Part shown: in pieces, positions 8,938 through 18,902 of the stretch
How the letters are laid out: every line of letters starts with the position of its first letter
Numbering within the stretch: position 1 is the stretch's first letter
DNA from: Ilumatobacteraceae bacterium
GTDB taxonomy: Bacteria > Actinomycetota > Acidimicrobiia > Acidimicrobiales > Ilumatobacteraceae
Direction of reading: 5' to 3'
Assembly (NCBI GenBank): GCA_033344875.1
Contig: JAWPMO010000001.1
Location: 2,319,595 to 2,383,594, forward strand
Length of the DNA stretch: 64,000 bases
Made by a program: the position numbers and the translations under genes
The notes under the pieces: model-generated
What the model was told of the DNA's origin: nothing
Database searches by the model: none
What the model saw: only the letters and a program-made list of their open reading frames with translations

Positions 8938-9975
8938 TCAGGTGACGAGTGCGGTACCGGCGTACGCCGTGCCGGCGACCAGCACCCACGCCATCAGGCC
9001 GAGCACCAGCGGACGGCCTCCGAGCCGGCGCATCTTCGCGACATGGACACCGAATCCGAGCGCGACGAGCGCGACGGTCAGCAGCAGCTTCTCGACGTCG
9101 CCGGCCCATCCGAGCGCCCGATCGCCGAGCACGCCACTCGACCGGAGGACGATCGCTCCGAGGAACCCGATGACGAACACGGGGAGCAACGGCGGGTGTG
9201 CGGTGTCCGACCCGACCTGGGGCCGCGCCGCCCGACGCCGGAGCGCGACGACGGCCACCAGCGGAGCCAGCAGCACGACGCGTGTGAGCTTCACGACGGT
9301 CGCGGCCTCGAGCGCCCGGTCGCCGTCCTGGCTGGCGGTGGCGACGACCTGGCCGACGTCGTGCACCGCACCGCCGACCCACGTGCCGAACGCGGCACCC
9401 GACAGGTCGATCGCCCCGGCGATCAACGGGAGCACGGCGATCGACAACGTGCCGCACAGTGTGACCAACGTGATCGCGTACGCGGTCTCCTCCTCGTCGG
9501 CGCCCACGACACCGTCCATCGCGGCGATCGCCGAGGCGCCGCAGATCGAGTACCCGGTCGCGACCAGCAGGCCCATGTCGGGGCCGATGCCGAGCCGGCG
9601 GGCGATCCACTGGGTCCCGATGAACGTGATGGTCACCACACCGGCGACGACGACGAGGCCGTCGACGCCGAGCCCGGCCAGGTCACCCAGCGAGAGCCGG
9701 AGGCCGAGCAGGACCACGCCGGCACGGAGGATCGGTCGGGCGCAGAAGGTGATGCCCGACGTCAGCCGTTCGGACACCGGCACGGTGTTGGCGACGACGG
9801 CGCCCAACACCACCCCGGCCACCAGCGGTGACACCGACGAGGAGAGTCCGGCGAGGAGCGTGGCGACGGCGGCGACCGCGACGACGGCGAGGACGCCGGG
9901 CGCGCGTTCGAGCAGCGGGCCGCGTGGCGCGACGGTCTCGACCGGCGCGCTTCGGGGGGCCTGCACGCTGGGCAC
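8938..9975 (-). CDS. Putative sulfate/sulfite exporter (PSE, YeiH/UPF0324 family)
   Basis: The 345-residue integral membrane protein has about ten hydrophobic helices and the family segments VAGVVLGAVVANT, LRAGVVLLGLRLSL and GYSICGASAI. The PSE family (TC 2.A.98) is known from taurine, sulfolactate and cysteate degradation clusters, where it is proposed to export the sulfur anion released from sulfonates. The GTG at 9975 lies one base after the stop of the sulfonate monooxygenase gene, which argues for coupling. A longer upstream start would overlap that gene and adds non-family sequence. Export of sulfite or sulfate is inferred, not shown. Confidence 0.82.
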   Translation of the reverse strand: MPSVQAPRSAPVETVAPRGPLLERAPGVLAVVAVAAVATLLAGLSSSVSPLVAGVVLGAVVANTVPVSERLTSGITFCARPILRAGVVLLGLRLSLGDLAGLGVDGLVVVAGVVTITFIGTQWIARRLGIGPDMGLLVATGYSICGASAIAAMDGVVGADEEETAYAITLVTLCGTLSIAVLPLIAGAIDLSGAAFGTWVGGAVHDVGQVVATASQDGDRALEAATVVKLTRVVLLAPLVAVVALRRRAARPQVGSDTAHPPLLPVFVIGFLGAIVLRSSGVLGDRALGWAGDVEKLLLTVALVALGFGVHVAKMRRLGGRPLVLGLMAWVLVAGTAYAGTALVT

Positions 9976-9976
9976 G

Positions 9977-11056
9977 TCAGTCGATGACGACGGGATCGGG
10001 CTCGAACTCCAACCGCCCGTGGTCGATGTGGGGCAGCACGTGCCGGGCGAACAGGTCACATTCGGCGGCGTGCGGATACCCCGAGAGGATGAACGCCTCG
10101 ATCCCGGCGGCGGTCAACTCCTGGATCTTGCCGAGCACCTGATCGGGATCGCCCACGATCGCGGCACCGGCGCCGGAGCGCGCCCGACCGACCCCGGTCC
10201 AGAGGTGACGCTCGACATAGCCGTCCTCGTCCGCCGCCTCCCGGAGCGCCGCCTGGTTGGCGACGCCGGCCGACGCCGAGTCGAGCGAGCGCTTGCGGAT
10301 CTGCTCGCCGGTCTCGACGTCGAGCTTCGACAGCAACCGCGACGCGGCGGCGCGTGCCTCCTCCTCGGTCTCACGGACGATGACGTGCGATCGCCAGCCG
10401 TAGCGGAGCGATCGTCCCTTCGCAGCGGCGCGGGCATCCATGTCGTCCTTGACGGCGAGCATCTTGTCGGTCGTGTCGGGCCACATGAGGAACACGTCGG
10501 CACCGGCGGCCGCACACTCGCGCGCCGCCGGCGACAGCCCGCCGAAGTAGAACAGCGGGCTGCGTCCGCTGACCGTGCCCACCCGCGGCGGCTCGACGGT
10601 CAGGTCGACGAACTCGCCGTGGAAGTCGAGCGGCTCACCGTCGAGGAGGCGACGCAACGCGTACATGACCTCGGTCGAACGCCGGTAGCGGGGTTCGCTG
10701 TCGAGCTGCTCGCCGGGCATCTCCGAGGAGATGATGTTGACGGTCAGCCGCCCGTCCATCATCTGGTCGAGGGTCGCCAGCTGCCTGGCGAGCTGGGGGA
10801 CGACGAGCTCGCCGCACCGCACGGCCAGGAGCATCCGGAGCGAGGTCATCGGCGCCATGCCCGCCGCGAACGCCGTGTTGTCGATCCCGAGCGCGTACCC
10901 GGACGGCAGCAGCACGTTGTCGAACCCGTACCGGTCGGCGGTGAGCACGATGTTCCGGCAGTGCTCCCACGAGCTCTTCAGCTCTTGGTCCGGCACACCC
11001 AGGAACTCGTAGTCGTCGTCGCACAGGGCGCTGAACCAGGACATTTCCACACTCAT
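9977..11056 (-). CDS. LLM-class flavin-dependent monooxygenase, SsuD/sulfonate monooxygenase-like
   Basis: The 359-residue protein aligns by eye over its full length with alkanesulfonate monooxygenase SsuD. Shared segments are FYFGG (169-173), RSHVIVRETEEEA (222-234), LWTGVGRARSGAGAAIVGD (285-303) and FILSGYPH (322-329). H224, R293 and Y327 correspond to the SsuD active-site His, Arg and Tyr; the SsuD active-site Cys is not conserved. These enzymes use FMNH2 and oxygen to release sulfite from a sulfonate, leaving an aldehyde. No flavin reductase lies nearby. The start overlaps the upstream Gfo/Idh stop (ATGA). Sulfoquinovose monooxygenases (SmoC) belong to this group, which makes a sulfosugar plausible as substrate. 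Confidence 0.83.
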   Translation of the reverse strand: MSVEMSWFSALCDDDYEFLGVPDQELKSSWEHCRNIVLTADRYGFDNVLLPSGYALGIDNTAFAAGMAPMTSLRMLLAVRCGELVVPQLARQLATLDQMMDGRLTVNIISSEMPGEQLDSEPRYRRSTEVMYALRRLLDGEPLDFHGEFVDLTVEPPRVGTVSGRSPLFYFGGLSPAARECAAAGADVFLMWPDTTDKMLAVKDDMDARAAAKGRSLRYGWRSHVIVRETEEEARAAASRLLSKLDVETGEQIRKRSLDSASAGVANQAALREAADEDGYVERHLWTGVGRARSGAGAAIVGDPDQVLGKIQELTAAGIEAFILSGYPHAAECDLFARHVLPHIDHGRLEFEPDPVVID

Positions 11057-12198
11057 CGGGCCGTTCCTCCGGTCGTGACGTCGTCGTTCGCCGACGCAGC
11101 GGCGCCGGCGTGTTGCATGATCTCCGTGAGTTCGACCGGCCGGCCGAGCTCGATACTGCGGTGCGCTGCGGCACCCATCGCGACCGCCCAGTAGCCGTCG
11201 ACCAGCGTGACCGCCGGCTGCCCCCCGGTGCGGATCGCCTCGATGAACTGGGCGTGCTCGAGGTAGCTCGAGCCGTGATGGAAGCCTTCGAAGGCGATCC
11301 GTTCATCGGTCGAGACATACTTCTCCACGTCGCCGATCCAGTGTTCGCCGCGTCGACCGACGACCACGGTGCCGGACGGCAGACGGGCCTCGACCTTGCC
11401 GAGTTCGCCGACCACCGACATCTCCTCCTGCTCCTCGGTCGCGTCGGCGAACATGCAGAGGTCGAGCAACGCCCGTGCCCCGCTCGGGTACTCGACGATG
11501 ACGTAGGCGTTGTCGAGGATGTCGGGGGTGCGCCCGTCGTACTCCTCGTCGAGGTGGTTGACGTCCTGCGCGCCCGATGCCATCACCCGGACCGGGTGTT
11601 CCTGCAGGATCAGGTTCATCAGGTCGAAGAAGTGACACGTCTTCTCGACGAGGGTGCCACCGGTGTTCTCGCTGAAGCGGTTCCAGTTGTCGACCTTGAC
11701 GAGGAACGGGAACCGGTGCTCGCGGATCGCGACCATGCGAGGTCGACCGACGGCGCCGTCGTGGACCCGAGCGATCAGGTCGGCGGCGGCGGGCATGTAG
11801 CGATACTCCATCGCCATCCAGGTGATCCACCCGTCGGGCCGGTCGGCAGCCAACTCGAGGATCCGTTCGCAGTCGGCGACCGTGGTGCACAGCGGCTTCT
11901 CGATCATCACGTGCACGGGGGCGGCGAGCGCATCGGGCAGCACGTCGATGTGCGTGTGATTGGGCGTCGCGATCACGACCGCGTCGCACAGCCCACTCGC
12001 CAGCAGCTCGCGATGGTCGTCGAACACCGCCACCTGCTGACCGGCGGCCATGGCGCCCTTGGCCCGGGAGTCGGCGTGCGTGTCGCTGATCGCCGTGACG
12101 ACGGCATCGCCGAGCGCCATCACGTTCTCGATGTGCTCGACACCCATCATCCCGGTGCCGATCACCCCGTAGCGGATCGGACGCGCAGCCGTACTCAT
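11053..12198 (-). CDS. Gfo/Idh/MocA-family NAD(P)-dependent oxidoreductase (possible GH188-like glycosidase)
   Basis: The 381-residue protein starts with a Rossmann fingerprint, YGVIGTGMMG, then ATPNHTH and the family motif EKPLCTT. A GGTLVEKTCHFFD segment follows in the C-terminal half. The family covers sugar dehydrogenases and NAD-dependent glycosidases such as GH109 and GH188; GH188 enzymes cleave sulfoquinovosides. Because the next gene is an SsuD-like monooxygenase (ATGA overlap) and then a sulfate exporter, a role on a sulfonated sugar is a reasonable inference. It may equally be an ordinary sugar dehydrogenase. An ATG at 12198 is used; a GTG nine bases further up is possible. Confidence 0.8.
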   Translation of the reverse strand: MSTAARPIRYGVIGTGMMGVEHIENVMALGDAVVTAISDTHADSRAKGAMAAGQQVAVFDDHRELLASGLCDAVVIATPNHTHIDVLPDALAAPVHVMIEKPLCTTVADCERILELAADRPDGWITWMAMEYRYMPAAADLIARVHDGAVGRPRMVAIREHRFPFLVKVDNWNRFSENTGGTLVEKTCHFFDLMNLILQEHPVRVMASGAQDVNHLDEEYDGRTPDILDNAYVIVEYPSGARALLDLCMFADATEEQEEMSVVGELGKVEARLPSGTVVVGRRGEHWIGDVEKYVSTDERIAFEGFHHGSSYLEHAQFIEAIRTGGQPAVTLVDGYWAVAMGAAAHRSIELGRPVELTEIMQHAGAAASANDDVTTGGTAR

Positions 12199-12296
12199 GA
12201 CCGCCACTCAATCAGAGATACGGGTGGACGACCAGGTGGATCATGGCTCGGAGGTCATAGGTGATGTCTATGGGGGTGGATTTTCTTCCCGATGGG

Positions 12297-12325
12297 CCGA
12301 CACCGAGTCCGACGCTCGCTACCAT
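12297..12325 (+). promoter_or_regulatory. Promoter of the aldo/keto reductase gene (leaderless type)
   Basis: CCGACA (12297-12302) and TACCAT (12320-12325) are separated by 17 bases. The -10 box ends seven bases before the GTG at 12333, which is where family homology begins. This supports a leaderless transcript and decides the start. Confidence 0.5.
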
Positions 12326-12332
12326 CGGCGAC

Positions 12333-13235
12333 GTGACCTCGCTCATCCACTCCGCCAACCGCACCATCGGATCCCTCGGCGAGGTCGGACCGATCTCGTA
12401 CGGACAATGGCGCTACACCACCGACGACCTGGCGACCGCACGCAATCTGATCGAGACCGCGATCGATGCCGGCATGAACCTGATCGACACCGCCGACGTG
12501 TACGGCCTCGACTGGGGCGGCGACGGGTTCGGTGAGGTCGAGGCGCTCCTGGGGCGCGTGCTGACCGACGCACCGCACCTCCGCGATCGTATGGTCCTCG
12601 CCACGAAGGGCGGGATCCGGCCGCCGACGCCGTACGACTCGTCCGCCGAGTGGCTGACGACCGCCTGCGAGGACTCGCTGCGGCGGCTGGCCGTCGACAC
12701 GATCGACCTCTACCAGATCCATCGCGCCGACCTGTACAGCCACCCGGCCGACGTCGCCGACGTCCTGACCCGGCTCCGCGAAGCCGGGAAGATCCGCGAG
12801 GTCGGCATCTCCAATCACACGACCGCGCAGACGACAGCGCTGCAAGCCCACCTACCGTTCCCGCTCGTCACCGTGCAGCCCGAGTACTCGTTGCTCGCGC
12901 TCGACCCGATGTTCGACGGCACGTTCGACCACTGCGCCGAGGTCGGGCTGCTCCCACTCGCGTGGAGTCCGCTCGCGGGCGGGCGGCTCGCCACCGGCGA
13001 GGGGGTCGATCCCGACCTGCTCGCCGCGATCGACCACATCGCCGAACGCGAAGACGTCGATCGCTCGCACGTCGCCATCGCGTTCGTCCTCGCCCATCCG
13101 AGCGCGCCGATCCCGATCATCGGGACACAACGTCCCGAGCGCATCGTCGACACGTTGCGGGCGCTCGACGTCGAGCTCGACCGGGCCGACCTCTACACGC
13201 TGGTCCAGGCGTCGATGGGCGAGTCGCTGCCGTGA
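12333..13235 (+). CDS. Aldo/keto reductase
   Basis: The 300-residue TIM-barrel enzyme carries the full catalytic tetrad D52, Y57 (IDTADVYG), K92 (LATKGG) and H130 (YQIHRAD). The C-terminal IGTQRPERI segment fits NADPH binding. It reduces aldehydes to alcohols. Divergent from the sulfonate monooxygenase operon, it may correspond to SmoB, which reduces 6-oxoglucose to glucose after sulfoquinovose desulfonation; this is inferred from context. The GTG at 12333 is preferred for its promoter spacing. The alternative is an ATG at 12264, with GGAGG at 12250-12254, which would add 23 residues without family similarity. Confidence 0.85.
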   Translation: MTSLIHSANRTIGSLGEVGPISYGQWRYTTDDLATARNLIETAIDAGMNLIDTADVYGLDWGGDGFGEVEALLGRVLTDAPHLRDRMVLATKGGIRPPTPYDSSAEWLTTACEDSLRRLAVDTIDLYQIHRADLYSHPADVADVLTRLREAGKIREVGISNHTTAQTTALQAHLPFPLVTVQPEYSLLALDPMFDGTFDHCAEVGLLPLAWSPLAGGRLATGEGVDPDLLAAIDHIAEREDVDRSHVAIAFVLAHPSAPIPIIGTQRPERIVDTLRALDVELDRADLYTLVQASMGESLP

Positions 13236-13283
13236 CCGCCTCGTCGGCGATGCCGTCGACCGGACCAACCGGATAGCGGGCCG

Positions 13284-14201
13284 ATGTCGCCGCTCGGCAC
13301 CGACGGCGTCGATCTCGCCGCCGTCCGGCTGTTCCTCTCGGTCGTCGAACTCGGCAGCGTCTCCAAGGCGGCGGCGCGGCACTCGATCGCACAACCGTCG
13401 GCCACCAGCAAGCTGCAGAAGCTCGAACGCCGCTTGGGCGTCGCCCTGCTCGAACGCAGCCCGACCGGCTCGACGGCGACCGCCGGCGGGGTGCGTCTCG
13501 CTCCTGCCTGCGCAGAACTCCTCGTCGCAGCCGGCGCCCTGACCGACCGCGCCGCCTCACTGCGCGATGACGAGACGCATCTGCGGATCGCGGCGACGCG
13601 CCACGTCGCCGAACACCATCTGCCCGAATGGACCGCTGCCATCCCGTTCCACGACGTGCGCGTCGACGTGGTCGAACTCGACACGTTGCGCGTCGCTCAG
13701 GCCGTGCGCTCGGGCGATGTGGCGCTCGGGTTCGTCGAAGGCCCCCAGGCGCCGGTCGGCCTGCGGTCCGAAGTGGTCGCGACCGAGCAACTCGTCGCGG
13801 TCGTCGGGCGGTCACACCCGTTGGCCGCACGGCGTCGGTCGCTCACCCCGAACCAGATCGTGACGTCGACGATGATCCTGACCCGGATCGGTTCGGGCAC
13901 GCGCGACGTGATCGAGGATGCGTTCGCCGCGCACGAGCTCGGCGCCGTCGGCGAACACATCGAGGTCGACAACGCAGCCGCCGTCCGAATCGCGGTCGCC
14001 AACGGTGCCGGCGTCGGATTCCTCCCCCGCTGTCGGGTCGATCGCGACCTCGAGGCGGGCCGGCTCGCGGAGCTCACGATCCGCTCGGTCTCGATCATCC
14101 AGCCCGTGCGCGTGGTGTGGCGGGGAGCCAGACCGTCGGCGCGACCCGCCCGATTGCTGGTCGACTCGATCGTCGGCCGCGCCGCGAACACGAGCGGCTG
14201 A
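13284..14201 (+). CDS. LysR-family transcriptional regulator
   Basis: The 305-residue protein has an N-terminal winged helix-turn-helix at about residues 10-65 (FLSVVELGSVSKAAARHSIAQPS), then a periplasmic-binding-like effector domain. Such regulators usually activate a neighbouring or divergent operon on binding a small metabolite. It follows the aldo/keto reductase by 48 bases on the same strand and so is probably in the same transcript. The likely target is the divergent region near 12199-12330, but no clear T-N11-A box was confirmed there. Confidence 0.88.
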   Translation: MSPLGTDGVDLAAVRLFLSVVELGSVSKAAARHSIAQPSATSKLQKLERRLGVALLERSPTGSTATAGGVRLAPACAELLVAAGALTDRAASLRDDETHLRIAATRHVAEHHLPEWTAAIPFHDVRVDVVELDTLRVAQAVRSGDVALGFVEGPQAPVGLRSEVVATEQLVAVVGRSHPLAARRRSLTPNQIVTSTMILTRIGSGTRDVIEDAFAAHELGAVGEHIEVDNAAAVRIAVANGAGVGFLPRCRVDRDLEAGRLAELTIRSVSIIQPVRVVWRGARPSARPARLLVDSIVGRAANTSG

Positions 14202-14385: not shown

Positions 14386-15849
14386 ATGATTTCACGTCGA
14401 ATCAAGGTGCTGGCACCCGTGCTGGCCATCTCGTTGATCGCCGCAGCCTGCGGCGACAGCGACGACGACACCGCAGAACCGCCGGCCGACACGGCCGACG
14501 AGGCGACCGGCGGCGCCGGTGATGACTCGGAGGAGGTGACGGACCAGCCGTCCGGGGAAATGACCGAGGACACCGGCGACACCGCCGCTCCTGCAACGGT
14601 CCCCGAGGGCGGCGAACTGCCCGAGACGTCCGAGGACGCGATCATCATCACCGGTCCCGAGCGCGACGAGTCCGAAGCCGGCTCGATCCAGGAAGTCCTG
14701 GGCGCCTGGGGTGCCGACAACGGCGTCGAGGTCGTGTACCTCGGTGACGCCAACTGGGAAGCGAACATCAACGTGCAGGTCGCCGGCGGCAACCCGCCCG
14801 ACATCTCGATCTTCCCGCAGCCCGGCAAGCTCGCCGAGTTCGCCCGCGCCGGAGACGTCGTGGCCTTGGCCGACGTCGCCGCCACCGCGACCGCCGACAA
14901 CTGGTCCGAGGCATGGACCGTGTTCGGCAACGTCGACGGCACCCAGGTGGGCGTCCCGGTCAAGTCCGACCTCAAGTCGCTCGTCTGGTACCAGCCGGCA
15001 CGCTTCGAGGCCGCCGGGTACGCCGTGCCCGAGACCTTCGACGAGTTCACCGCACTGATCGACCAGATGCTCGCCGACGGCGGCCCGAAGCCGCTCTGCG
15101 TCGGCATCGAGTCCGGTCAGGCCACGGGCTGGACCTACACCGACTGGGTCGAGGACATGGTCCTGCGCCAGCACGGCCCCGAGGTCTACGACCAGTGGGT
15201 GAGCCACGAGATCCCGTTCAACGACGAGCGCATCGTCGAGTCGATGCAGACCGTGCTCGATCTCTGGACCGAGGACAACGTCTACGCCAACAGCGGCACC
15301 ATCGCCGCCACGGCGTTCCAGGACAACGGTGGACCGCTCGTCAACGGTGACTGCTACATGCACCGTCAGGCGTCGTTCTACTCGGCGTTCATCCCCGAGG
15401 GCACGGCGTTCGCCGACGGCTCCGAGGACGCGGTCGACGTGTTCTACTTCCCCGACATCGACGGTTCAAAGCCGGTGCTCGGCGCCGGGACCCTGGCAGC
15501 GGCCTTCAACGACCGCCCCGAGGTCCACGAGCTCCTCGCCTACATGGCGACGCCCGACTACGCCGAAGCACGCCAGACGGCACAGCAGGCACTGAAGGGT
15601 GGCGGCGACGCCCTCTCCGGCTTCCTGTCCGCCGTCAACGGTCAGGACCCGTCGGTGTACCAGCCGCTCGAGCAGTCGTTCCTCGACATCCTCTCCGAGA
15701 GCGCGATCGTCCGGTTCGACGCCTCCGACCTGATGCCCGCCGACGTCGGCGCCGGCAGCTTCTGGACCGAGGGCACCTCGGCCGTCAACGGTGACATCAC
15801 GGCCCAGGAAGCGGCCGACACCATCGAAGCATCGTGGCCCGCCGGCTGA
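14386..15849 (+). CDS. Sugar ABC transporter substrate-binding lipoprotein (family 1)
   Basis: The 487-residue protein has a lipoprotein signal with lipobox IAAAC, an acidic linker rich in Asp, Glu and Thr to about residue 75, then a type-1 extracellular solute-binding domain. The domain contains GDANWEANINVQVAGGNPPD, typical of alpha-glucoside or oligosaccharide binders. It captures a sugar outside the membrane and hands it to the two permeases downstream. It sits behind a LacI-type operator, and a terminator-like hairpin follows its stop. Given the neighbouring desulfonation genes, a sulfosugar or its glyceryl glycoside is a possible ligand; an alpha-glucoside is the conservative alternative. 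Confidence 0.88.
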   Translation: MISRRIKVLAPVLAISLIAAACGDSDDDTAEPPADTADEATGGAGDDSEEVTDQPSGEMTEDTGDTAAPATVPEGGELPETSEDAIIITGPERDESEAGSIQEVLGAWGADNGVEVVYLGDANWEANINVQVAGGNPPDISIFPQPGKLAEFARAGDVVALADVAATATADNWSEAWTVFGNVDGTQVGVPVKSDLKSLVWYQPARFEAAGYAVPETFDEFTALIDQMLADGGPKPLCVGIESGQATGWTYTDWVEDMVLRQHGPEVYDQWVSHEIPFNDERIVESMQTVLDLWTEDNVYANSGTIAATAFQDNGGPLVNGDCYMHRQASFYSAFIPEGTAFADGSEDAVDVFYFPDIDGSKPVLGAGTLAAAFNDRPEVHELLAYMATPDYAEARQTAQQALKGGGDALSGFLSAVNGQDPSVYQPLEQSFLDILSESAIVRFDASDLMPADVGAGSFWTEGTSAVNGDITAQEAADTIEASWPAG

Positions 15850-15887
15850 GCCGACGGCACGAGCTGACACACACCTGAACCCGAAAG

Positions 15888-15920
15888 GGGCACCGGCACA
15901 TTGGTGCCGGTGCCCTTTTT
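15888..15920 (+). terminator. Rho-independent terminator/attenuator between binding protein and permeases
   Basis: A perfect 12-bp stem (GGGCACCGGCAC / GTGCCGGTGCCC) with loop ATTG is followed by five T residues. Because the permease genes follow on the same strand, it probably acts as a partial terminator that keeps binding-protein mRNA in excess. Confidence 0.8.
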
Positions 15921-15952
15921 CGTTCTAGATTGACCAACAAGGGGGTTGCAAC

Positions 15953-17899
15953 ATGGGGGAAACCTTTTCCAAGCTGCTGTCGACCGTCATCACGGTGATC
16001 GTCGCTGTCGGGGCCAGCGCGGGCATCTGGATCGGCGCCAACCTGGTGTTCAACCAGGTCAAGCAGAACTGGCGCACGTTCACGGCGCTGGCGTTCGGGC
16101 TGTCCGGCTTCTTCGTCGGCGTGCTGATCAGCGGCAACCGGGTGACGCGGTACTCCAGCGACCCCGACGCCGAGGGCTTGGTCAAGTTCGGCTACTGGGT
16201 CTGGTTGCCGCTCCTCATCGGTGTCTGCGCTGCGTTGATCGGCCTCCTCCTCGGGGCGACCGACGACCCGACCCGCCGGCTGGCGATCGGCGTCGGTGGG
16301 CTCGCCGCCCTCGGCGCACTCGTCGGGAGCTTCGTGCGGGCCGAGTACCGACCCGAACTCGACGCCGCTGCGCTCATCGGCTGGACCGTCGGCGTCGCGG
16401 TCGTCGGTGCCGGGCTCGGCGCACTCCGCAAACGACCGCCGCTCGGCGGCGCCCTGATCGGCGGAGCGATCGGATGGATCCTCGGTGCCTGGGGTGCACC
16501 CGAACTCGGCGGCGGCAGCGCCGCCTGGGCCGTCGTCGCGATGATCGTCCCCGCCGCACTGGTCGGCGTCCGGATCGGCATGGGAGCCGTACCCGACGCG
16601 ACCGGACGGGCCGCGATCGACCAGAAGTCCCGCGCCGTCATCTTCGTCGGCCCGGCGCTGCTGTTCATCTTCGCCATGCTCGTGGTTCCGGCGCTCCGGA
16701 CGCTGCTGCTGTCGATCAAGGATCGCGACAGCCAGGATTACGTCTGGTTCGACAACTACCGGGCGATCTTCCAGGATCCGAAGAGTTGGGACACCTCGAT
16801 GTGGACCGACATGTTCACCAGCCGCCTCTTCTACACCGGCCTCGTCCTGCTCGGTGTCGCGCTGCTCCTCGGTCTGCGGGCGCGTCGTCGCACCGGGCGA
16901 TTGGTCGAGCTGGGCAGCCCGAGCATGGGCCCCCTCCTCTTCGGCGGCCTGCTGCTGTCGTTCGCGGTGTTCACGACCGTCCGCGGCACGATCATGAACA
17001 ACCTGTGGTGGGTCGTCGTCGTGACCCTCTTCTCCACCTCGATCGGTCTCGCCATCGCGGTCCTGGCCGACGGCGCCAAGTTCGAGAAGGTGGCCAAGTC
17101 GCTGGTGTTCATGCCGATGGCGATCTCGCTGGTCGGCGCCTCGGTCATCTGGCGGTTCATGTACGTCGCCCGCGACTCGAGCAAGGAACAGACCGGCGTG
17201 ATGAACGCGCTCTGGGTCGGGCTCGGCAAGCTGAGCACCGGCAGCGGTGTGGCCACGATCGTGTTCGGCCTCGTGTTCACCGCGATCTTCGTCGGCGTCA
17301 TGGCGCTCGTCGCCGACGCACTCGTGAAACGCGAGTACCCCCGCGCCGTCATCCCGGGTGTGCTCGCCGTCCTGCTCGGCTGGTTCCTCCTGCGGTACTG
17401 GCAGATCTACGGCGGCGGGGTCGGAGGCCAGCGAACCAACGCCGGCGGACGCACCGTCGGCGACCCGATCAACTTCATCCAGGACGGCCCGTTCAACAAC
17501 ATGTGGTTGATGGTCGTGCTGATCTGGATCCAGACCGGGTTCGCGATGGTGATCCTCTCCGCGGCGATCAAGGCGGTGCCGACCGAGTACATCGAGGCGG
17601 CCAAGGTCGACGGCGCCACCGACGGTCAGGTGTTCTGGCGGATCACGCTCCCGTCGATCAGCACGACGATCGGCGTGGTCGTCACGACGCTGATCGTGCT
17701 GGTCATGAAGGTCTACGACATCGTGCAGGTCCTCACCAACGGCAACTTCGGTACCGAGGTGCTCGCCAACAACATGTACCGAGAAGCGTTCCTCAACCAG
17801 GACTTCGGACTCGGGGCGGCACTCGCCATCCTGATCTTCGTCTCGGTCCTCCCGGTCATGGTCATGAACATCCGTCGCATGCAGCAAGAGGAGGCCTGA
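15953..17899 (+). CDS. Sugar ABC transporter permease (MalF/AglF-like) with large extra membrane regions
   Basis: The 648-residue protein is about twice the usual MalF length. Roughly the first 215 residues form about seven extra helices. The permease core starts near residue 225 and includes the cytoplasmic EAA loop (YIEAAKVDGA, near residues 545-560) that docks the ATPase. Two further hydrophobic hairpins appear inserted, near residues 285-345 and 435-480. It should form the translocation pore with the next gene product. The stop is two bases before the next ATG. The extra regions carry no motif that I recognise. Confidence 0.85.
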   Translation: MGETFSKLLSTVITVIVAVGASAGIWIGANLVFNQVKQNWRTFTALAFGLSGFFVGVLISGNRVTRYSSDPDAEGLVKFGYWVWLPLLIGVCAALIGLLLGATDDPTRRLAIGVGGLAALGALVGSFVRAEYRPELDAAALIGWTVGVAVVGAGLGALRKRPPLGGALIGGAIGWILGAWGAPELGGGSAAWAVVAMIVPAALVGVRIGMGAVPDATGRAAIDQKSRAVIFVGPALLFIFAMLVVPALRTLLLSIKDRDSQDYVWFDNYRAIFQDPKSWDTSMWTDMFTSRLFYTGLVLLGVALLLGLRARRRTGRLVELGSPSMGPLLFGGLLLSFAVFTTVRGTIMNNLWWVVVVTLFSTSIGLAIAVLADGAKFEKVAKSLVFMPMAISLVGASVIWRFMYVARDSSKEQTGVMNALWVGLGKLSTGSGVATIVFGLVFTAIFVGVMALVADALVKREYPRAVIPGVLAVLLGWFLLRYWQIYGGGVGGQRTNAGGRTVGDPINFIQDGPFNNMWLMVVLIWIQTGFAMVILSAAIKAVPTEYIEAAKVDGATDGQVFWRITLPSISTTIGVVVTTLIVLVMKVYDIVQVLTNGNFGTEVLANNMYREAFLNQDFGLGAALAILIFVSVLPVMVMNIRRMQQEEA

Positions 17900-17900
17900 G

Positions 17901-18902
17901 ATGAGCAACATCACCACGGTCGAGACCGACCCGGGCGGCGTCGCCGACCCGATGGCGAGCGAACACGGGCGCAGCGGCACCGGCGGCGACGGCGGCTCCG
18001 GGCCGATCGATCGCGTCTACCGACTCCTCAAGGGCATCCCGACCTGGATGCTCTGGCTGATCGTCGCGATCTGGAGCCTGCCGACCGTCGGTCTGTTTAT
18101 CAACGGCTTCCGCGAACGCGATGCACAGCGCTCGACCGGCTTCTGGAAGACGCAGGCGGGCGAGGGCACGCTCGACAACTACCGGACGATCTTCGAGTCC
18201 AACCAGGGGTTCGGCAAGTCGCTCCTGAACTCGGTCGCGATCGCGGTGCCGGCGACGATCATCCCGATCGCGATCGCCGCGTTCGCGGCGTACGGGTTCG
18301 CCTGGATCGACTTCAAGGGTCGCAAGCCGCTGTTCATCGCCACCGTGGCGCTGCTCGCCGTGCCGTTGCAGGTCGCGCTGATCCCGCTGCTCCAGTTGTG
18401 GATCTCCGGTGCCCACCTGACGCTGCCGTTCATCGACAAGACGATCACGCTGATCCCCGACTTCGACCTCGTCAACACGACGACCGCGGTCTGGCTGACG
18501 CACACCGGGTTCGGTCTGCCGTTCGCGATCTTCCTGATCCACAACTACATCTCGGCCCTGCCGAAGGACGTGTTCGAGGCGGCCCGCATCGACGGCGCCG
18601 ACCACTTCACGATCTTCTGGCGGCTGGTGTTGCCGTTGTCGATCCCCGTGCTCGCCGCCTTCGCGATCTTCCAGTTCCTCTGGACCTGGAACGACTTCCT
18701 GATCGCGCTCACGATGGCCGGCACCAACCCCGACGCTCGACCCACGACGATCCTGATCGCGAACCTCGCCGGCGACTTCGGCCGCAACGAACACCTGCTG
18801 CCCGCGGCTGCGTTCGTGCAGTCGTTCATCCCGCTGTGCGTGTTCTTCGCCCTCCAGCGGTACTTCGTCAGAGGCATGCTCGCCGGCGCCGTCAAGGGCT
18901 AG
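17901..18902 (+). CDS. Sugar ABC transporter permease (MalG/AglG-like)
   Basis: The 333-residue membrane protein has six main helices after a roughly 35-residue Gly/Ser-rich cytoplasmic N-terminus. The EAA loop reads FEAARIDGADHFTIFWRLVLP. It pairs with the preceding permease to import the sugar delivered by the binding lipoprotein. It begins two bases after the upstream stop. No ABC ATPase follows, so a shared MsiK/MsmX-type ATPase elsewhere is expected to energise the complex. Confidence 0.9.
   Translation: MSNITTVETDPGGVADPMASEHGRSGTGGDGGSGPIDRVYRLLKGIPTWMLWLIVAIWSLPTVGLFINGFRERDAQRSTGFWKTQAGEGTLDNYRTIFESNQGFGKSLLNSVAIAVPATIIPIAIAAFAAYGFAWIDFKGRKPLFIATVALLAVPLQVALIPLLQLWISGAHLTLPFIDKTITLIPDFDLVNTTTAVWLTHTGFGLPFAIFLIHNYISALPKDVFEAARIDGADHFTIFWRLVLPLSIPVLAAFAIFQFLWTWNDFLIALTMAGTNPDARPTTILIANLAGDFGRNEHLLPAAAFVQSFIPLCVFFALQRYFVRGMLAGAVKG

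Follow-up and report, generated by a model that had tools for sequence, protein, structure and literature searches.

How large can one subunit of a sugar importer grow, and what would its added membrane segments be for? The question is raised by a permease gene, P0001 (15953..17899, + strand), in a 64,000-nucleotide stretch of DNA from an Ilumatobacteraceae bacterium (GenBank assembly GCA_033344875.1, contig JAWPMO010000001.1, positions 2,319,595 to 2,383,594), hereafter the window. Its reading frame, Pfam, AlphaFold2 and fold alignment describe an AglF/MalF-type subunit of 648 residues with 17 predicted membrane helices. An original prediction, made from the sequence of the window, had presented it as a 648-residue permease of an ATP-binding cassette (ABC) sugar importer carrying an additional membrane domain at its N-terminus and hairpins inserted in the core, a description borne out by the reading frame, the AlphaFold2 model and a superposition on SugA. 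P0001 is a real, conserved, oversized permease and a variant of a known permease type. What is notable is less P0001 alone than the quantised series of hairpin gains and losses, within one subunit, to which it belongs. We read P0001 as a MalF-side, CUT1-like permease of the AglF lineage, part of a family-wide hairpin series, with sulfoquinovose or a sulfoquinovoside as cargo and with the hairpins forming a peripheral scaffold; to this combination we give a probability of about 0.68.

A complete core in an enlarged chain

The P0001 frame starts with ATG, its length of 648 residues is confirmed, and it is flanked on the same strand by a binding-protein gene on one side and a second permease gene on the other. 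This binding protein–permease–permease order recurs in other sugar ABC operons. The Pfam domain BPD_transp_1 is recognised with 48.4 bits against a cut-off of 26.4, covering residues 431-637 only, and the best NCBIfam stretches are likewise confined to the C-terminal half. The EAA coupling loop (residues 544-568, 17582..17656, + strand) is retained, as originally stated, with E548, A549, A550, D553 and G554 invariant in 16 rows. The relatives of the core sequence are AglF-type proteins. Judged by its domain, predicted six-helix core, EAA loop and operon context, P0001 has the features of a type I (CUT1-like) sugar ABC importer permease.

AlphaFold2, run on a 45-row alignment, predicts 17 membrane-length helices (mean predicted local distance difference test score, pLDDT, 85.5; predicted template modelling score, pTM, 0.69), and a hydrophobicity caller at one threshold also returns 17 spans. 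The original figure of about 16 is close to this and is reproduced by a cruder Kyte-Doolittle count; a fold with just the ordinary six to eight helices does not emerge. The predicted helices occupy residues 3-38, 40-61, 76-102, 106-126, 138-158, 163-181 and 190-210 in the N-terminal part, 216-254, 291-314, 322-342, 346-372 and 378-404 (broken) in the middle, and 433-458, 462-482, 515-540, 570-594 (broken) and 618-647 in the rest of the chain. They form a predicted six-helix core of the SugA/MalF type, one ancestral helix at the N-terminus and a set of five added hairpins: three follow the ancestral helix ahead of core helix 1, a fourth separates core helices 1 and 2, and the last separates core helices 3 and 4.

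Along the + strand, the ancestral helix TM-a (residues 3-38, 15959..16066) is followed by the N-array, composed of hairpins A (residues 40-102, 16070..16258), B (residues 106-158, 16268..16426) and C (residues 163-210, 16439..16582), each delimited by the models of the full chain and of its N-terminal part and by profile comparison. The model and the alignment with SugA then place core helix 1 (residues 216-254, 16598..16714), core helices 2 and 3 (residues 346-404, 16988..17164) and, together with Pfam, core helices 4-6 (residues 515-647, 17495..17893). Inserted hairpin 1 (residues 291-342, 16823..16978) separates core helices 1 and 2, and inserted hairpin 2 (residues 433-482, 17249..17398) separates core helices 3 and 4; both are supported by alignment, model and charge distribution. 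Residues 221-648 of the model superpose on SugA (7caf_A) with a VIA-align Z of 23.5 at 2.7 Å over 276 of 284 solved residues, which indicates a complete core to which insertions 1 and 2 are additions. A Foldseek search with the model finds 7cad_A (E 5.2e-07, TMt 0.75). The two hydrophobic insertions first noticed inside the core are thus both present as predicted membrane hairpins. Modelled separately, residues 1-216 give a pLDDT of 93.6 and a pTM of 0.82. About seven extra N-terminal helices had been counted: six of them, the three hairpins, are truly added, but the seventh is TM-a, which we count as ancestral because residues 3-38 align with the single N-terminal helix of short AglF proteins of ~340 residues. 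Within it, N30 is conserved in at least 90% of 45 rows, ten of them forms of ~411 residues that lack the N-array.

The predicted topology places the N-terminus outside and the C-terminus inside, in agreement with the positive-inside rule over 34 long forms with the same hairpin counts: lysine plus arginine make up 0.174 per residue of the predicted-inside loops vs 0.076 of the predicted-outside ones. Taken singly, inside loops hold 0.17-0.26 and outside loops 0.02-0.10, the sole exception being the EAA loop (inside, 0.073).

A wrong start codon, fused frames or an assembly error could in principle create such a chain, and all 37 long- or intermediate-form loci of our named collection come, by title, from metagenome-assembled genomes. 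However, the long frame runs uninterrupted in the genome of the window and in genome G021, each a single contig, and stop-free long frames are found across many genera. In a set of 100 related genomes (including that of the window; 77 with some match), 20 loci were taken, and 16 of them, counting that of the window, hold a complete long frame, while the other four end at contig edges. Across the 15 complete long homologues, residues 1-215 are conserved in frame, with 25-56% identity to the P0001 sequence vs 57-83% for the C-terminal 143 residues. Crude nonsynonymous rates (dN) are below synonymous rates (dS) in 8/8 tested pairs for the N-terminal part and in 7/8 for insertion 2, with dS near saturation. 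A scan of 395 genomes of the class, with three candidates scored per genome, gives by hand count 45 genomes in which one match spans model position ≤10 to ≥640. Because the N-terminal part is conserved, long frames recur and single-contig genomes carry them, a late start, including one near residue 215, or an assembly fault is excluded, and we regard the artefact explanation as refuted.

A series of whole hairpins and its origin

Relatives were collected with a 16-row profile scan of genome contigs, from which the best 80 of 586 confirmed stretches were used, plus loci from other searches; loop lengths were compared over 116 aligned proteins. The loop between TM-a and core helix 1 (the N site) falls into classes of 8-22, 58-81, 177-227 and 253-257 residues, the loop between core helices 1 and 2 into 23-49, 88-96 and 147-180, and that between core helices 3 and 4 into 31-51, 102-113 and 158-165. 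Two N-site lengths lie outside the classes, 106 (L064) and 109 (L133, unscored). The lengths 58 at the N site and 158 between core helices 3 and 4 both come from one odd protein, L111 (982-2865, − strand), a relative of the short form whose insertion-2 site holds a soluble CarboxypepD_reg/SdrD_B-like domain, just below the Pfam cut-offs. By these aligned lengths, the steps fit whole hairpins: 0, 1, 3 or 4 at the N site and 0-2 at each of the two core sites. The extra N-terminal domain does not look like a foreign domain fused once to the permease; P0001 is one rung of a graded family that gains or loses hairpin units at three sites.

Forms of the AglF lineage run from roughly 7 spans through 9, 11, 13, 17 and 19 up to about 26, with 0-7 added hairpins. 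Spans were called at one hydrophobicity threshold on whole stop-to-stop frames, where leaders and helices before TM-a inflate the counts. Proteins without added hairpins give 7 in 13 of 17 cases; one hairpin between core helices 1 and 2 gives 9 (one protein) and two give 11 (one protein). Three hairpins give 13 in four of five proteins (14 in L059), and five give 17 in 19 of 34, the remainder ranging from 16 to 21. Three proteins hold two hairpins in the loop joining core helices 3 and 4, and they show 19, 19 and 20 spans; L031, with four N-array hairpins, has 20. Six proteins whose loop from core helix 1 to core helix 2 holds two hairpins yield 22-23 vs 19 expected, some of them having helices before TM-a; L052 yields 23 and L053, with seven hairpins, 26. 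The ~411-residue forms show 10 in 37 of 43 vs 9 expected, and L118 shows 9 vs 7 expected from its loop class. The largest form, L053 (4876-7899, + strand), is ~1004 residues long with ~26 predicted spans, about six of which precede the ancestral helix in a by-eye reading of the alignment. L064 (5647-7161, + strand), a Frigidibacter permease, differs from its close relatives by a hairpin-like insert of its own at the site of the N-array. Hairpin growth is limited to one subunit. The partner permease keeps its size, its largest insert being 19 residues over 118 loci with a match and 17 in 45 long-form loci.

A quick tree built on the core only (116 rows, 273 columns, long branches) bears on gain and loss. 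Forms with hairpins at both inner sites make one group of 51 with support 94, or 98 when the four long-branched rows (L111, L119, L120 and L122) are left out, as they also were in the clade test. The ~411-residue alphaproteobacterial forms, whose hairpin lies between core helices 3 and 4 only, are sister to the short Sinorhizobium meliloti protein. A single clade of all insertion-2 bearers is rejected (95 rows vs 17, approximately unbiased test p 0.0005), a result compatible with two gains and also with one gain plus losses. With L111 and L064 given separate character states and L133 unscored at the N site, the fewest changes are 9 at the N site, 6-7 between core helices 1 and 2 and 5 between core helices 3 and 4. 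The one-hairpin forms L043, L045, L047 and L055 are nested among three-hairpin forms, which suggests losses. The tree thus implies that whole hairpins have been repeatedly gained and lost. The second hairpin of insertion 2 in L012, L014 and L016 looks homologous by eye, so that P0001, which is the sister of L012, may have lost an insertion-2 hairpin.

The N-array helices are rich in glycine (18% vs 5% in the core; glycine plus alanine 36% vs 16%). Mean pairwise identity is 0.31 in the N-array and 0.30-0.35 in the inserts vs 0.65 in the core; the N-array evolves faster than the core. Over 23 N-arrays, N62 and G178 are the sole invariant positions, and N62, R109, P134 and G178 are kept in at least 90%. 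Pfam has no match in the added N-terminal part of P0001, the glycine-zipper models PF13441, PF13488 and PF05433 included, in keeping with the original statement that it holds no known motif; that statement does not extend to the 23 homologous N-arrays, where weak glycine-zipper matches occur in at most three members per model (PF13441 in three, best E 0.0014; PF13488 in two, 0.00034; PF05433 in two, 0.03). The match of L053 scores 16.8 bits, below the cut-off of 25.

The original prediction had also proposed looking for this domain on its own. A 23-row N-array profile, with up to seven candidates scored per genome, found no N-array outside a permease in 396 Actinomycetota genomes: 18 genomes gave matches, and the 12 with E ≤ 2.3e-28 all lie within a permease, 11 of them re-found with the full-length query and the twelfth, L013, being a truncated permease. 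The six weak matches (E 4.6e-5 to 4.2e-4) fall in loci without a permease match and, from their frames, were read as unrelated, some being antiporter-like. Among viral contigs, 33 pattern matches included no relative, and PHROGs gave no match for the N-terminal part. Against the Protein Data Bank (PDB), the N-array fold has no Foldseek match below E 2.3. Its best VIA Z is 7.1 over 55 residues, and the Tim17/22/23 and NDUFA11-like four-helix proteins reach Z 5.5-6.9 at 3.5-6.9 Å; both lie in the chance range for helical bundles.

Hairpins A, B and C likely, though not provably, arose by tandem duplication. In a profile comparison of hairpins, A-B, A-C and B-C (39, 53 and 67%) are the top non-overlapping pairs, followed by B-insertion 1 at 26%; without insert letters the values are 40, 36 and 68% vs 29%, a smaller margin. 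Where the array has four hairpins, its second unit resembles its third (z 6.3 in L052, 4.3 in L053), other pairs giving z 0.7-4.1. A column-shuffle control does not discriminate, as B-insertion 1 and TM-a-insertion 2 also beat 100/100 shuffles.

Gene neighbourhood and candidate cargo

Upstream of P0001 lies the gene of a lipoprotein-like substrate-binding protein (14386..15849, + strand; Pfam SBP_bac_1; C22 invariant in 11 rows). Between the two genes, a very stable RNA stem-loop with a U-run (15870..15935, + strand; -37 kcal/mol, z -6.85, 0/200 shuffles as good) perhaps lets the binding protein exceed the permeases in amount. Downstream, a partner permease of the MalG/GlcU type (17901..18902, + strand; 333 residues; Pfam, NCBIfam) is not enlarged in relatives. 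No ATPase gene stands beside P0001. A UgpC/MsiK-like ATPase is encoded 1.9 Mb away in the same genome and shows 72% identity, across 380 residues, to an ATPase whose gene adjoins a long-form locus; such distance is expected for a shared MsiK-type motor.

The stretch 8938-14201 resembles a putative sulfoquinovose gene cluster, composed of exporter-like, SmoC-like, SqgA-like, aldo-keto reductase and LysR genes. A luciferase-like monooxygenase (9977..11056, − strand) is a candidate sulfoquinovose monooxygenase: its closest PDB entries, 7olf/7oh2 (E 2.7e-108), which we take to be SmoC, precede alkanesulfonate monooxygenase 1nqk (6.2e-57). Next to it, a PF03601 membrane protein (8938..10059, − strand) is a putative exporter of sulfite or sulfate. 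The aldo-keto reductase (12261..13235, + strand; Pfam and PDB match) is a candidate 6-dehydroglucose reductase in the SmoB/SquF role. A Gfo/Idh/MocA protein (11053..12207, − strand) is closest to the SqgA NAD+-dependent sulfoquinovosidases, matching 8qc3 (E 1.2e-104) and 8qc2 (1.4e-98), which PMC10755693 presents as SqgA structures. A LysR-type regulator (13284..14201, + strand; Pfam) ends the group. The chemistry of sulfo-ASMO/SMO pathways, as outlined in PMC9594981, is oxygenolytic desulfonation followed by reduction to glucose, and PMC13372026 reports sulfo-SMO clusters as frequent in Actinomycetota. Since the neighbouring genes are SqgA-, SmoC- and SmoB-like, the cargo at the P0001 locus is likely sulfoquinovose or a sulfoquinovoside.

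Neighbours were counted by hand over the 37 long- or intermediate-form loci, many of them cut short, and over 43 loci of ~411-residue forms. The former hold the monooxygenase in 14 cases, the reductase in 15, the Gfo/Idh protein in 12 (two weak, near the locus edge) and all three in 9; the latter hold them in 1, 0 and 2 cases, and an alpha-glucosidase in 36. Of the 14 long-form loci with the monooxygenase gene, 12 place the reductase and the monooxygenase after the two permease genes in the same orientation; in seven the Gfo/Idh gene separates reductase from monooxygenase, and gene ends overlap in L034 and L047.

Role of the hairpins and known importers

In the mechanism we propose, the binding protein would hand the glycoside to the core formed by P0001 and its partner, and a shared ATPase of the MsiK type, present in two copies and encoded elsewhere, would power the cycle. 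Less certainly, glycine-rich hairpin faces could pack around the exterior of the core as a membrane scaffold, leaving the hairpins outside the direct transport path. Glycine richness, divergence and the few invariant positions point to such a peripheral scaffold, although they are suggestive only; among possible roles we would rank the scaffold first and neutral growth second.

Several results weigh against this reading. The structure of P0001 was predicted from a shallow alignment (45 rows) with a whole-chain pTM of just 0.69, and it is a model of the single chain, not of a complex, which matters for how the hairpins would pack on core or partner. Charged residues are as frequent in N-array helices as in the core (3.9% vs 4.3%; in P0001, 3/107 vs 4/123), and a lack of charge therefore cannot serve as an argument for a scaffold. 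On the cargo side, the reductase finds its best PDB match in another enzyme, 4r9o (E 9.7e-42), and 7bby (3e-39) and 7bbz, presumably SmoB, come third and fourth behind 4r9o and 7twz. The binding protein has no match at E ≤ 0.001 to a known SmoF entry, singly or as a profile, so that sulfoquinovose as cargo rests on the gene neighbourhood. The cluster contains no flavin reductase, a PF01613 search of the same genome giving three places, all outside the window; sulfo-SMO clusters without one are known (PMC9594981). Finally, an alpha-glucosidase-like gene (33-43%) occurs in 13/37 long- or intermediate-form loci (L026, L027, L028, L030, L032, L033, L035, L043, L044, L046, L047, L055 and L095). Some of these loci also hold sulfoquinovose-type genes.

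The main rival to a scaffold is neutral accretion, in which two-helix units insert and duplicate because they leave the topology unchanged and are tolerated, with no selected function. Gain and loss of hairpins as units, with the change counts given above (9, 6-7 and 5), would suit it, as would the one-hairpin forms L043, L045, L047 and L055 nested among three-hairpin forms, the low pairwise identity of the inserts, roughly half that of the core, and the single row with a CarboxypepD_reg/SdrD_B-like domain at the insertion-2 site. However, a match to the whole long model persists in 45/395 genomes of the class, dN stays below dS for the N-terminal part in all eight pairs, and N62, R109, P134 and G178 are kept; we consider neutral accretion unlikely, yet a serious competitor. 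The N-array could instead be a fused module with a function of its own, for instance as a channel, a sensor or a secondary transporter. It folds compactly alone, its helices hold charges as often as those of the core, and single N-arrays weakly match Gly_transporter (E 0.004) or HisKA_4TM (E 0.0077). With two invariant positions only in 23 N-arrays, no good match to a solved fold and no occurrence outside a permease in the 396 genomes, this second idea appears improbable.

An ordinary alpha-glucoside as cargo, with the sulfoquinovose-like genes adjacent by chance, would agree with the aglEFGAK-type operons of the short relatives and ~411-residue forms, with a binding protein that is not recognisably SmoF-like and with the alpha-glucosidase-like genes of 13 loci. 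Against it stand the same-strand order of reductase and monooxygenase after the permease pair in 12/14 loci, with Gfo/Idh between in seven, the overlapping gene ends in L034 and L047, and the window itself, which holds no match (E ≤ 0.001) to the S. meliloti alpha-glucosidase in its 64 kb. We prefer sulfoquinovose or a sulfoquinovoside and hold a chance adjacency for rather unlikely, slightly more so than neutral accretion.

A more speculative extension of the scaffold reading is that the AglF lineage of Acidimicrobiia and neighbouring Actinomycetota grows by hairpins: the N-array would be a glycine-zipper tandem repeat changed by unequal recombination (1, 3 or 4 units), further hairpins would enter two extracytoplasmic loops, and chains of up to ~26 helices would form an asymmetric collar on half of a sulfoquinovose importer. 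We advance it tentatively, with somewhat more doubt than confidence. If true, the collar and tandem repeat would be a living record of polytopic membrane proteins adding helices in pairs. The general view is that large membrane proteins gain helices mostly via whole-domain duplication. The same core with 0-7 added hairpins at three fixed sites, intermediates included, offers a natural series for the growth and shrinkage of membrane proteins, permitting tests of the cost or gain of an inserted hairpin, of how topology is maintained and of adaptive vs neutral growth. The locus further suggests that Ilumatobacter-like bacteria use sulfoquinovose, taken up through an importer lineage otherwise known for alpha-glucosides. 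In the literature searched, we found no description of enlarged AglF-type permeases and none pairing sulfoquinovose with Ilumatobacter.

The closest known systems include AglF of the S. meliloti type (L118; annotated as 'sugar ABC transporter permease'), an alpha-glucoside permease which is ~51% identical in the C-terminal half and shares the binding protein-F-G order and the single N-terminal helix. However, it has 336 residues, 7 helices by loop class and no added hairpins, against 648 and 17 in P0001. The ~411-residue AglF-like permeases (Alphaproteobacteria, mostly Rhodobacterales) resemble P0001 in having core helices 3 and 4 separated by a hairpin, but lack the N-array (L064 has its own insert) and insertion 1, and the hairpin sequences are only weakly alike (hhalign 50%). 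SugA of the mycobacterial trehalose importer LpqY-SugABC has the same core fold in a chain of ~305 residues with six helices. MalF of Escherichia coli shares the core fold with Z about 19-21 and carries its P2 loop between core helices 1 and 2, the site of inserted hairpin 1 in P0001. That MalF insert is soluble and touches the maltose-binding protein, whereas the P0001 insert at this position is predicted to be a membrane hairpin. Sulfo-SMO (sulfo-ASMO) clusters combine a monooxygenase, an aldo-keto reductase and an SqgA-like glycosidase beside an ABC importer, as here; unlike in those clusters, the binding protein, which is not recognisably SmoF, and the permeases at this locus belong to the AglEFG lineage.

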